From NCBI GenBank assembly GCA_021324615.1, contig JAJPIT010000031.1, positions 1-64,000 of the forward strand: DNA of 64,000 bases, in the 5' to 3' direction. A model generated the notes under the pieces. That model was given only the letters and a program-made list of their open reading frames with translations. It made no database searches and was not told the origin of the DNA. The DNA is from Terriglobia bacterium (GTDB lineage: Bacteria > Acidobacteriota > Terriglobia > Bryobacterales > Bryobacteraceae). Made by a program: the position numbers and the translations under genes. Each line of letters begins with the position of its first letter. Positions within the stretch are counted from its first letter, which is position 1. Of the stretch, positions 18,914-31,828 are shown piece by piece.

Positions 18914-19774
18914 CTGGATCAAATCGGAAGGTCCGCGAAGCTCTCCGCCCTCCGGGTGGCTTTTCAAGGCGAGCTCGGCGCCTTCAGCCAGCAGGCGGTG
19001 GCCCAACTGGCCGGGCCGCGCGCGAAGCCGGTTGCGAAACAGCGGTTTGAGGACGTCTTCGGCGCGCTTGCCGCGGGGGAGGTGGACGCGGCGGCGCTGC
19101 CGATTGAAAATACGCTGGCCGGTTCGGTGCACGAAAACTACGATCTGCTGCTCAAATACGACTTCGAGATCACCGCGGAGACGAACGTCCGGATCGTGCA
19201 CCATCTGATCGCTCCGCCGGGCGCGAGTTTCTCCTCGATCCGGCGGGTCTTTTCGCATCCGGTGGCGCTCAATCAGTGCCGGGATTTTTTCGCCCGCCAC
19301 CGACGCCTGGAGCGGGTGCCGTTTTACGACACGGCGGGCAGCGTCAAAATGGTGATGGAGGAGAAGCCGGCCGGCGCCGCGGCCATCGCCTCCGAACTGG
19401 CCGCGAAGCTTTATGGCGCGAAAATCCTAAAGCGTGAAATTGAAGACGACCGGCGGAATTTCACGCGGTTTTTCCTGCTGGAAAAATCGGGCGCGGCGCC
19501 GCGCGGCCGCGGCGGGGAGTGGAAGACTTCGCTGGTGTTTTCGACGCGCAACACGCCGGGATCTTTGTTCCGGGCCCTGGGTGCGCTGGCGCTGCGCGAT
19601 CTGAATCTGGCGAAGATCGAATCCCGCCCCCGGCGCGGCAAACCTTGGGAATACATGTTTTATCTGGACGTTCGCGCGCATCGCGACGAGCCGCGAATGA
19701 AGAACGCGCTGTCGCATCTCGGCGAAGTCGCGGATTTTCTGCGGGTGCTGGGCAGTTACCGGGCCGCGCGCTGA
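18914..19774 (+). CDS. pheA: Prephenate dehydratase (PheA)
   Basis: Prephenate dehydratase converts prephenate to phenylpyruvate, the committed step to phenylalanine. The protein has the catalytic domain with FQGELGAFSQQA, AALPIENTLAGSVHENYDLL and the Thr-Arg-Phe signature NFTRFFLLE, followed by a C-terminal ACT domain for phenylalanine feedback (TPGSLFRALGALALRDLNLAKIESRP). It stands alone, without a chorismate mutase domain. The start is uncertain: GTG at 18956 removes part of the first strand and has no ribosome binding site, whereas a CTG at 18914 is preceded by AGAGGTGA and adds fourteen residues; a stop codon lies two codons before it. I prefer the rare CTG. The last 19 bases overlap the convergent exosortase gene. 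Confidence 0.9.
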   Translation: MDQIGRSAKLSALRVAFQGELGAFSQQAVAQLAGPRAKPVAKQRFEDVFGALAAGEVDAAALPIENTLAGSVHENYDLLLKYDFEITAETNVRIVHHLIAPPGASFSSIRRVFSHPVALNQCRDFFARHRRLERVPFYDTAGSVKMVMEEKPAGAAAIASELAAKLYGAKILKREIEDDRRNFTRFFLLEKSGAAPRGRGGEWKTSLVFSTRNTPGSLFRALGALALRDLNLAKIESRPRRGKPWEYMFYLDVRAHRDEPRMKNALSHLGEVADFLRVLGSYRAAR

Positions 19775-29347: not shown

Positions 29348-29353
29348 ATCATA
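29348..29353 (-). promoter_or_regulatory. -10 box for the gene starting at 29341 (leaderless)
   Basis: TATGAT on the minus strand, overlapping the aroF stop codon and six bases before the TTG start. The same -10-to-start distance is seen at 40699 and 42955. Confidence 0.4.
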
Positions 29354-30410
29354 ACCGACCCGCGGTCACCTCGACGGCGCGCCCTGCCGCCGCGGCCCGC
29401 CGCGCCTTCCACAGCCCGATATACGGCTGAAGATCGCGCATCATGGCCGCGAACTGCCGGGGATCGAGCGACTGCGCTCCATCGCTCATCGCCTTTTCCG
29501 GCGCCGGATGGACTTCCACCAGCAATCCGTCCGCGCCGATCGCGACGCCGGCGCGCGCCACTGCGGGAACCAGGCTGCGCTTTCCGGTGGCGTGGCTCGG
29601 ATCGAGAATCAGCGGCAGATGCGTCAGCTCCTCGAGCGCGGCGATCGCGGCGATATCGCACGTATTCCTGGTCGCCGTCTCGAAGGTGCGGATTCCGCGC
29701 TCGCACAGCATCACCTGCGGATTGCCGTGCGCCACGATGTACTCAGCGCTCATCAGCAATTCCTTGAGGGTGGAGCTCATGCCGCGCTTGAGCAGCACCG
29801 GCCGGCGGCATTTTCCGAGAGCCTTCAAAAGCGCGAAATTTTGCATGTTTCGCGCGCCAATTTGCAAAATATCCGCGTATTCGGCGACCATTTCCACATC
29901 GCCATCGCTCATCACCTCGGTGATGATGCCCAACCCGGTCGCCTTCCGAGCTTTGTCGAGCAGCTTTAATCCTTCGAGCGCCAATCCCTGAAAGTCGTAG
30001 GGCGAGGTTCGCGGCTTGAACGCGCCGCCGCGCAGGAATCTGGCGCCCTCGCGCGCGACAGCTTCCGCCGCCTCCAGAATTTGCCGCTCGCCTTCGACCG
30101 AGCAAGGTCCCGCCATCACGATGAATTCATCTCCGCCGAAGGTCACCCCGCGCACGCGAATTTCCGTCTTTGCCGGCCGGAATTCGCGGCTGACGAACTT
30201 GTAAGGCGCGGAAATCCGAACCGCTTTCTCCACGCCCGGCATCGCCTCCAGCGACTCCAGGCACTGCGTCACATCGCCGATTCCCACCGCTCCGATCACC
30301 ACCCTTTCTTCGCCCTCGATCGAATGAACTTTATAGCCGAACTCTTCAATTCTTCTCCGCACCGCGTCGACCTCCTCCTTTGTCGCATGCAATCTCATCG
30401 AAACGATCAT
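29349..30410 (-). CDS. aroF: DAHP synthase (3-deoxy-7-phosphoheptulonate synthase), KdsA-like type
   Basis: This enzyme condenses phosphoenolpyruvate and erythrose-4-phosphate, the first step of the shikimate pathway to Phe, Tyr and Trp. The 353-residue protein is the type I-beta form: a ferredoxin-like regulatory domain (1-75) followed by the KdsA-related barrel with [48 protein letters not shown] and DPSHATGKR. The N-terminal domain allows allosteric control. The gene is preceded by its own promoter, a leader peptide rich in aromatic residues and an intrinsic terminator ending 11 bases before the ATG, so it is almost certainly controlled by transcription attenuation. The GGGGG at 30417-30421 is the likely ribosome binding site. 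Confidence 0.97.
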
Positions 30411-30421
30411 GGAAGACCCCC

Positions 30422-30454
30422 AAAAAACAAAAAACCCACTCTTTCGAGTGGGTT
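30422..30454 (-). terminator. Attenuator terminator of aroF
   Basis: Minus strand: AACCCACTC (30454-30446), GAAA tetraloop, GAGTGGGTT (30441-30433), then T-rich sequence TTTTTTGTTTTTT. It is a perfect 9-bp intrinsic terminator that ends 11 bases before the aroF start codon, so it cannot be the end of the upstream MFS gene alone: a transcript from the promoter at 30548-30576 must pass it to reach aroF. Confidence 0.92.
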
Positions 30455-30488
30455 GGATTTTATTTAAAAAACGTTCAAGCCCACTCGC
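30445..30488 (-). promoter_or_regulatory. Antiterminator pairing of the aroF leader
   Basis: Segment 2 (CGAGTGGGCTT, 30487-30477) can pair with the terminator's 5' arm (AACCCACTCG, 30454-30445) through ten base pairs with one bulged C, which excludes the terminator. Segment 1 inside the leader peptide (GCCGCTCGC, 30532-30524) can in turn pair with segment 2 (GCGAGTGGGC, 30488-30479) over eight pairs around a small internal loop. This gives the full 1:2, 2:3, 3:4 set of a trp-type attenuator. Segment 2 starts six bases after the leader stop codon, so a ribosome at the stop would cover it. Confidence 0.8.
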
Positions 30489-30493
30489 GCGAT

Positions 30494-30538
30494 TCAGGTG
30501 CTAAAGTAATACGACCAGAATCGGCGAGCGGCAAACAT
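30494..30538 (-). CDS. Aromatic amino acid leader peptide ([14 protein letters not shown])
   Basis: A 14-codon open frame with Phe2, Phe7, Trp8, Tyr10, Tyr11 and Phe12: six aromatic residues of 14, including all three kinds. It lies between the promoter and the antiterminator/terminator of aroF. By analogy with the trp and pheA leaders, ribosome stalling at codons 7-12 when charged aromatic tRNAs are short would leave segment 2 free to form the antiterminator, and transcription would continue into aroF. With ample supply, the ribosome reaches the TGA, masks segment 2 and the terminator forms. No Shine-Dalgarno is visible; the predicted transcript starts only a few bases before the ATG, so translation may be leaderless. 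Confidence 0.82.
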
Positions 30539-30547
30539 GAAACGTTC

Positions 30548-30576
30548 AATATATCATAAAGCCCGCCCTTCTGCAA
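30548..30576 (-). promoter_or_regulatory. aroF promoter
   Basis: Minus strand: TTGCAG (30576-30571), 17-base spacer, TATATT (30553-30548). Transcription should begin near 30541, just upstream of the leader peptide ATG. The promoter lies between the MFS gene stop (30596) and the leader. Confidence 0.65.
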
Positions 30577-30595: not shown

Positions 30596-31828
30596 TCAAT
30601 CCACCGGATCGCGGCTCAGTGCGGCCGAGCGAGCGACGGCGGCGTGATCGCCCGGGCGGTAGCGCGCGGCAATGAGAAAACCGGCGAGCACGATGGCGGA
30701 GGCCGTCAGTCCCCAGCCGGTCAGCAGCCCGCGCTGGATCAGAAAGCCGGCGAGCGGCGGTCCGGCGATCTGGCCGATGGACGTCAGCGATTGCGTCAAT
30801 CCCAGCACGACGCCTTGCTCCTGGCGAGGCGCGGCCTGGGTGATCATGCTGGTGAGCGTCGGCCGAACCAGGCTGCCGAGCGCGGAGGCGACCGTCGCGG
30901 CGGCCAGCATCGGGATCGAATCGCAAAAAGCCAGCAGCGCGTAGCTGGTCACGTAGGCTGCGAAGCCGACGCGATGGAGTGTCGCTTCGCCGAACCGCTT
31001 CACCAATTTTCCGAGCGCGGGCCCTTGCAGAAAAATTCCCAGAAAGCCGGCGAACGCCCAGGTGAAGCCGACCTGCTCGGGTCCGAACGCGATGCCGTGC
31101 CAGTACAGCCGCCGCTCGGCGTATAAGGGAAAGCCGGCGGTAAACATGGCGAAGGCCAGGGCGAAGCTCAGAAATTCGTACAGCAGCGGCGCGATTCGCG
31201 GATCGCGGAAGTATCGCGCGTACTCGCCCCATTGCAGCAGCGACAACCGCCGCCCGCCCGGCCCATCGGAAGAAGCGCGGCCGCTGTTCACCGCCGGCAA
31301 TAGAAACGCCGTGGAAAGAATGCTGGTGAAGGACAGCGCCGCCGCGGCGAAGATGGGGTAGTGATAATCGAACTTCGCCAGGTACCCGGAAATTGCGGGC
31401 CCGATCAGGAATCCCATGCCGAAGGCGATGCCGATAATCCCGAAGGATTTCGCCCGGTCCTCGGGACGCGTCACATCGGAGATGTAGGCTTGCGCGAGCG
31501 AAAGATTGCCGGCGGTCGAGCCGTCGATTATGCGCGCCAGAAACACCACCCAGAGCGAGGGCGCGAAGGCCATTACTAAAAATCCGATCAGCGTGCCGCA
31601 CTGGCTCAGCAGCAGCAGCGGCTTTCTGCCGGTATGATCGGACGCGCGGCCGAGCAGCGGGCCGGAGAGGAGCTGGCAGGCCGCGTACACGCCGATCAGC
31701 CAGCCGACCTCGGTCGCCGTCGCGCCCAGCGATTCGGCGTAAAAGGGCAGCAGCGGGATCATGATCGTCAGCCCGAGCACGTCTACGGCGACGATCAGAA
31801 AAATCGCGAGCAGCGGAGAAGAGAGCAA
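30596..31828 (-). CDS. MFS drug exporter, TetA-like
   Basis: A 410-residue, twelve-helix major facilitator of the drug:proton antiporter (TetA/DHA1) type. Motif A is visible in the first cytoplasmic loop as GRASDHTGRKPLLLL, and helix 5 carries the antiporter motif region IGIAFGMGFLIGPAISG. The start appears to be TTG at 31828, three bases after the stop of the carbonic-anhydrase-like gene, without a visible ribosome binding site, so translation is probably coupled to the upstream gene. It ends 20 bp before the aroF promoter. The substrate cannot be deduced; the neighbouring alcohol dehydrogenase might make a related small molecule, but this is speculation. Confidence 0.88.
   Translation of the reverse strand: MLSSPLLAIFLIVAVDVLGLTIMIPLLPFYAESLGATATEVGWLIGVYAACQLLSGPLLGRASDHTGRKPLLLLSQCGTLIGFLVMAFAPSLWVVFLARIIDGSTAGNLSLAQAYISDVTRPEDRAKSFGIIGIAFGMGFLIGPAISGYLAKFDYHYPIFAAAALSFTSILSTAFLLPAVNSGRASSDGPGGRRLSLLQWGEYARYFRDPRIAPLLYEFLSFALAFAMFTAGFPLYAERRLYWHGIAFGPEQVGFTWAFAGFLGIFLQGPALGKLVKRFGEATLHRVGFAAYVTSYALLAFCDSIPMLAAATVASALGSLVRPTLTSMITQAAPRQEQGVVLGLTQSLTSIGQIAGPPLAGFLIQRGLLTGWGLTASAIVLAGFLIAARYRPGDHAAVARSAALSRDPVD

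Follow-up and report, generated by a model that had tools for sequence, protein, structure and literature searches.

A predicted ribosome-mediated attenuator with an aromatic-rich leader peptide in front of aroF in Bryobacteraceae

In the trp and pheA leaders of E. coli a leader peptide and four RNA segments, which form the stems 1:2, 2:3 and 3:4, carry the logic of transcription attenuation. Attenuators in front of DAHP synthase genes have been described or proposed in other bacteria. In the actinobacterium C. glutamicum the leader peptide aroR with its aromatic codons (Phe-Tyr-Phe) lies before the DAHP synthase gene aroF, and the parts of the sources cited here report ribosome-mediated attenuation, on which Phe limitation acts and Tyr availability does not (PMC11802643, PMC4046766). 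For Acholeplasma, the excerpt on which we draw presents the aroF motif uORFC-13-1 as a computational candidate attenuator, made up of an upstream ORF that includes one or more Phe codons, a ribosome binding site for this ORF and an intrinsic terminator (PMC8632094). Furthermore, the title of Morbach 2000, as cited in PMC4046766, states that the leader peptide of C. glutamicum ilvBNC is formed without a ribosome binding site. With regard to the phylum treated here, a passage of a 2010 paper on its authors' earlier survey describes the attenuators predicted in phyla like Acidobacteria as almost all lacking an associated function (PMC2965389). A published attenuator of the aroF kind in Acidobacteriota was not found in the open-access literature, in line with the first-pass annotation of the locus described below, which knew of no account for an acidobacterial DAHP synthase.

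The window is the whole stretch of DNA that was analysed, 64,000 nucleotides from a Terriglobia bacterium of the family Bryobacteraceae (contig JAJPIT010000031.1, positions 1 to 64,000). On its minus strand the following features surround the start of aroF:

30596-31828, minus strand: MFS transporter gene, the upstream neighbour (identity read from the translation)
30571..30576, minus strand: predicted -35 hexamer TTGCAG, with a 17-base spacer to the -10 hexamer (sequence read and script check)
30548..30553, minus strand: predicted -10 hexamer TATATT, 9 bases 5' of the leader ATG (sequence read)
30494..30538, minus strand: leader peptide gene of 14 codons and a TGA stop, with its ATG at 30538 (sequence and conservation)
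30518..30531, minus strand: segment 1, CCGCTCG and CGATTC, within the leader gene (fold and codon-order test)
30476..30495, minus strand: segment 2, GAATCG..CGAGTGGGCTTG, whose partner is segment 1 or segment 3
30445..30456, minus strand: segment 3, CCAACCCACTCG, shared by antiterminator (as 3' arm) and terminator (as 5' arm)
30433..30441, minus strand: segment 4, GAGTGGGTT, 3' arm of the terminator, after the GAAA loop
30422..30434, minus strand: two T6 runs 3' of the hairpin (sequence read)
29349..30410, minus strand: aroF, DAHP synthase gene, the product of which begins with a ferredoxin-like domain (Pfam matches)

The aroF gene matches the Pfam families DAHP_synth_1 (E 5.4e-79) and DAHP_snth_FXD (E 9.2e-18), and its product is of type I-beta. 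Aromatic residues fill six of the 14 positions of the leader peptide (2, 7, 8, 10, 11 and 12), the codons being of the Phe, Trp and Tyr kinds. Six bases past the leader stop CGAGTGGG begins; the predicted terminator, AACCCACTC-GAAA-GAGTGGGTT, spans 30454-30433, and the T6 runs end at 30422, with the aroF ATG following 11 bases on at 30410. An antiterminator can form by pairing of CGAGTGGGcTTG with CAACCCACTCG, leaving one bulge, and in stem 1:2, which spans the stop codon, CCGCTCG and CGATTC of the leader pair with GAATCG and CGAGTGG. The unconstrained fold consists of 1:2 plus 3:4 (-60.6 kcal/mol, z -4.5), and none of 200 shuffles folds as well. Promoter, leader, segments, terminator and spacings had been described in the first-pass annotation, and they agree base by base with the sequence and with a script check; the same holds for the aromatic share of the leader, the bulged pairing of segment 2 with the 5' arm of the terminator and the pairing of a part of the leader with segment 2.

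By its anatomy the locus looks like a trp-type ribosome-mediated attenuator, and we assign a probability of about 0.93 to the reading that a ribosome translating the leader controls aroF by transcription attenuation. The likeness to the E. coli trp and pheA leaders, which the annotation had named as the principle, lies in the four-segment logic with a leader peptide, and it is borne out by anatomy, conservation and double-sided stem changes; the acidobacterial leader differs in that it codes for three aromatic amino acids and starts without a Shine-Dalgarno sequence. From C. glutamicum aroR, to which it is likened by description only, it differs in its phylum and in the leader, the median acidobacterial leader having six aromatic codons, mostly with Trp. 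The Acholeplasma motif likewise belongs to another phylum and, in contrast, has a ribosome binding site, while the ilvBNC leader, also from another phylum, concerns branched-chain amino acids. Since attenuators of DAHP synthase genes are known or proposed, and a leader that lacks a ribosome binding site has been reported before, the aroF attenuator joins a known principle.

The MFS gene shares the strand of the element and has its 3' end shortly before it, as would suit a hairpin that merely terminates this gene, beside a short ORF present by chance. Yet a promoter-like sequence of the sigma-70 kind (TTGCAG-17-TATATT) is situated between the MFS gene and the hairpin, and neither blastn nor tblastn gave a match to the MFS gene in 20 genus loci, although the positive control L001 was found. 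The leader region aligns in 15 of these 20 loci, and aromatic-rich leaders recur in 48 of the 60 genera of the family that were sampled. The attenuator thus belongs to aroF, because the MFS gene is absent where the leader region is aligned; the reading as a terminator of the MFS gene was rejected, leader and hairpin being kept where the upstream gene is missing, and we regard it as exceedingly improbable.

Among relatives, the attenuator is widespread. The aroF protein has a match at E 1e-100 or better in all 23 genomes of the genus, and a close orthologue (77% identity or more) in 21 of them, the match in the other two reaching ~53% only. The leader is present in 20 of the 21 genomes that hold the close orthologue, the exception being L098. 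The family was sampled with 150 genomes, 122 of which have aroF at E 1e-130 or better; 113 of these 122 upstream regions were fetched, and after removal of two that are cut by contig ends (L138, L169), 111 could be evaluated. As judged by reading of the sequences, 87 of the 111 carry an aromatic-rich leader, 21 are without one and three are degenerate. Elsewhere in the order, the one locus read from family f2 carries the leader, and the layout occurs in six of the 15 loci fetched from family f3, all six from genera other than g78; at the f3 loci L224 and L225 it is present but weak. In g78 itself the leader is absent from all nine loci fetched (L227-L235), two more g78 genomes with the gene having been left out. 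Five g78 loci (L227, L229, L230, L231 and L233) have, by eye, another upstream sequence in common. The distant relatives L008 and L013 are read as divergent forms of the attenuator, and in L014 the segments GGCGGGC / GCCCGCC / GGCGGGC replace GAGTGGG / CCCACTC / GAGTGGG, next to an aromatic-rich frame whose start codon is unassigned.

The quantitative comparisons draw on 158 upstream sequences in all, including four duplicates (L005, L006, L007 and L012, equal to L116, L145, L153 and L154). Eight leader rows in which the segment-3/4 pattern failed were dropped (L087, L130, L148, L162, L193, L216, L237 and L238), leaving 111 leader rows for the analysis of starts and -10 boxes; this set is different from the 111 evaluable family rows. 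Eleven of the 111 leader rows have no recognised segment-2 core, which leaves 100, and four of these have no codon shuffle, which leaves 96.

Aromatic residues (F, W or Y) account for 615 of the 1814 leader residues in the 100 rows that have a recognised core. Typical peptides are MALSYASSFSFRFWPFA, MNRSFASSYRFWFRYFTG and MRFVASNSFRFWFWYGT; the leaders remain aromatic though their residues change among relatives. For the stems, 47 rows picked for diversity were aligned and compared with 500 shuffles, which ignore relatedness. The 2:3 helix of 11 pairs, which shares segment 3, is paired in 89.9% of cells (0/500 shuffles as high); it shows double-sided changes in six of its 11 pairs (20/500 as high) and in 16 cells (0/500), together with 13 further pair types, a number that is not unusual (96/500 as high). 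When the helix is slid by one column, pairing falls to 46% or less. Against the same shuffles, 3:4 is paired in 98.1% of cells (0/500 as high) and has double-sided changes in four of nine pairs (23/500 as high), amounting to 21 cells (0/500). In some rows all three segments have, by eye, changed together: GAGCGG-CCCGCTC-GAGCGGG is found in L165, L173 and L185, and GGGTGG-CCCACCC-GGGTGGG in L196, L208 and L213. Stem 1:2, whose 5' arm lies in coding sequence, is favoured as well: 95 of 100 leaders pair with at least four of the six bases of the segment-2 core, and the real codon order gives a better fold than shuffles of the same codons for 88 of the 96 rows (median z -1.8), a preference seen in 39 of 42 genera represented by one row each. 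The first-pass annotation had named, as what would refute it, a lack of the leader peptide and of compensatory stem changes among close relatives; the comparison came out in its favour, with the leader kept in nearly all genomes of the genus and double-sided changes in 2:3 and 3:4.

Strong sequence conservation marks segments 2, 3 and 4, perhaps beyond the needs of pairing, a pattern that would favour a leader RNA which binds a protein or ligand (as a riboswitch, a T-box or the target of an RNA-binding protein) and thereby runs the terminator, the ORF being incidental. However, segments 2 and 3 each have two pairing partners, which alone would slow change, and the leader continues to code for aromatic residues, with its codons ordered in favour of 1:2. 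Moreover, all Rfam families stay below threshold, both in the window and at the attenuators of 20 related loci. The scan of the window gave no match at the gathering cut-off; Trp_leader (RF00513) scored 20.2 bits against a cut-off of 41 (E 0.058), and a T-box was found neither at the cut-off nor among 20 weak matches. The scan of the 20 related loci returned one tRNA and nothing else at cut-off. Known riboswitch, T-box and leader families of Rfam were rejected, as none reaches its cut-off, and a binding RNA with an incidental ORF is in our judgement very improbable.

The ribosome-mediated reading calls for a translated leader, and the layout of the leader start is peculiar. At a threshold of at least 5.7 bits, 87 of the 111 leader rows have a -10 box that ends 7-11 nt 5' of the leader start, as has one of 288 other ATGs in the same sequences, leader starts having been picked partly by their -10 score. 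Where a single in-frame ATG is present, the box is found in 71 of 87 rows and a Shine-Dalgarno-like tetramer in six; if the most upstream in-frame ATG is always taken, the figures are 74 and 12 of 110. Before the ATG of aroF a -10 box at that spacing occurs in none of the 111 leader rows. Shine-Dalgarno-like tetramers precede seven of the 111 leaders compared to 106 of the 111 aroF starts. The leader mRNA is therefore probably leaderless, because the -10 box adjoins the ATG and Shine-Dalgarno-like sequences are rare, and its transcript would start some 0-5 nt 5' of the leader AUG. The annotation's surmise that the leader may be translated without a Shine-Dalgarno sequence is thus sharpened to a conserved layout. 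In the figures that we cite from a genome survey, leaderless genes average 13.3% in three acidobacterial genomes (PMC3160421). The aroF leader offers a case in which ribosome and polymerase would start to be coupled on an mRNA that has hardly any 5' leader.

From these elements we infer the following mode of action. RNA polymerase would start a few bases 5' of the leader AUG, and a ribosome would load there, with hardly any RNA 5' of the AUG. As long as charged Phe-, Tyr- and Trp-tRNA are in ample supply, the ribosome would reach the stop codon and cover segment 2, so that 3:4 forms and transcription ends. If charged aromatic tRNAs are scarce, the ribosome would stall at aromatic codons over segment 1; segment 2 could then pair with segment 3 while segment 4 has yet to be synthesised, and transcription would run on into aroF. 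Without any translation, 1:2 and 3:4 would form and lead to termination.

The distances fit a trp-type switch, since 14 nt or more separate 607 of the 615 aromatic codons from the segment-2 core 3' of them, while the leader stop is less than 14 nt from the core in 94 of the 100 rows. The stalled state was modelled on a transcript that ends just past segment 3, with the RNA blocked to 11-15 nt beyond an aromatic codon in the A site. Under these assumptions 2:3 forms for 557-563 of the 615 aromatic codons; on the same transcript free of ribosomes, the count is 35-36 rows out of 100. A ribosome placed at the stop codon leaves 2:3 formed in 50-54 of these rows if its footprint is taken as 11 nt, in 42-43 at 13 nt and in 11-12 at 15 nt; depending on this assumption, the model has 2:3 blocked in as few as 46 or as many as 89 of the 100. 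Once segment 4 is present and the fold is at equilibrium, the terminator is best in 96 rows out of 100 if no ribosome is present and in 94-98 if one sits at the stop; with the ribosome stalled, 3:4 remains best in 72-80. The equilibrium test of the stalled state accordingly leaves the switch unsupported in the 100 rows, whereas the co-transcriptional version supports it. Because the terminator wins at equilibrium even when the ribosome is stalled, the switch must be kinetic. A kinetic order of events is needed in classical attenuation, too. In the models used here, the need for this order and the footprint-dependent stop state are the main weakness of the computational case.

Which amino acids count is a separate matter. 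The attenuator might sense just one or two of them, most likely Phe, the remaining aromatic codons being neutral. Phe is the commonest, making up 19.4% of non-initial leader residues in the 100 rows versus 9.9% for Tyr and 6.6% for Trp, and 18 of the 100 leaders are without at least one of the three; on the other hand, all three occur together in 82, and almost every aromatic codon sits where a stall would leave segment 2 free. A precedent for a neutral codon is provided by C. glutamicum, where, according to the portion of the source cited, the aroF leader includes a Tyr codon and Tyr supply is without effect (PMC11802643). A narrower sensor of this kind is a serious possibility, although we rate it somewhat below even odds. 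For the ribosome-mediated attenuator in general, what is distinctive on the sequence evidence is the combination of three aromatic amino acids in most leaders, a predicted leaderless layout, and a wide occurrence in the family and beyond it in the order. For Acidobacteriota this is a well-supported attenuator of wide occurrence, whose regulatory reading is clear, whose signal is predicted and which is easy to test.

Rows in which the attenuator is present, degenerate or lost provide a natural series for the study of changing gene control. Where the leader is missing in the family (21 rows), the ATG of aroF is preceded at 5-11 nt by a -10 box (at least 4.9 bits) in 10 cases, compared with none of the 111 leader rows; in those 10 rows aroF itself would be leaderless, because the box adjoins its ATG. 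In L098, L132 and L194 the terminator comes, by eye, right behind a promoter-like box, as would result from a deletion of the leader. A further element, TACACC-N7-RGTGGTG with small variations, was found in 22 aroF upstream regions, 15 without and seven with the leader (examples are L140, L142, L149, L160, L163, L189 and L201, at -80 to -110 from aroF). It looks like a putative binding site of a regulator protein. Its end is 67-71 nt from the start codon concerned in 11 regions, 78-82 nt in seven and at another distance in four, counting to the leader ATG if a leader is present and else to the ATG of aroF. Searched genome-wide, the box is not enriched, with 26 matches in 12 genomes versus 44 for the reversed control, and the aroF site is among the matches in 11 of the 12. 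No regulon was drawn, since the matches fall below the control and include the aroF site in nearly every genome.

We consider it an even bet that leader-peptide attenuation, often leaderless, is a general control of amino acid synthesis in Acidobacteriota, which would include the aroF leaders with their three amino acids, Trp-rich trpE leaders, Phe-rich pheA leaders and poly-Cys leaders of sulfur and peroxiredoxin genes, with an aroF module that can be deleted to leave a leaderless aroF, often beside the operator-like box. A covariance model (R1) used to search the phylum had matches in 78 of 396 genomes, three of them from the genus; outside the genus the matches mostly cover the terminator alone (model positions 117 onward). 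Eight loci and 20 stretches around R1 matches outside the order were read by eye, gene names being read from translations except for trpE, which was identified by family search. In most of the other stretches read around R1 matches no leader was seen, and many hold a plain terminator or nothing.

Leaders containing Trp, along with terminators, precede trpE in L285 and L315, and Trp frames without an assigned start were noted in L302, L324 and L329; the trpE family match lies directly downstream in L285, L302, L315 and L329. A scan of 30 trpE loci yielded a Trp ORF with a terminator-like hairpin in seven, several of which are doubtful. Short Trp-containing frames with terminators before trpE were also seen in L353 and L362, from other acidobacterial families. 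In the genus, five of 20 trpE and five of 22 pheA upstream regions were read by eye over short stretches, and no leader was seen in these. The window itself holds a prephenate dehydratase (pheA) domain on the plus strand at 18956-19489, before which no leader was seen by eye.

In L300, from another family of the same class, a Phe-rich leader, MNQRTGFTFSPYFYFFPCGERA, and a terminator precede a pheA-like gene, and in L294 an aromatic-rich frame with an unassigned start lies before an aroF-like gene. Cys-rich leaders (e.g., MTTISNTFSFRCCCCCNVTGVRG) with terminators form a further group: the next gene is peroxiredoxin-like in L291 and L320, a PAPS-reductase-like gene follows the leader and terminator in L321, and L312 and L319 are further cases of Cys-containing leaders.
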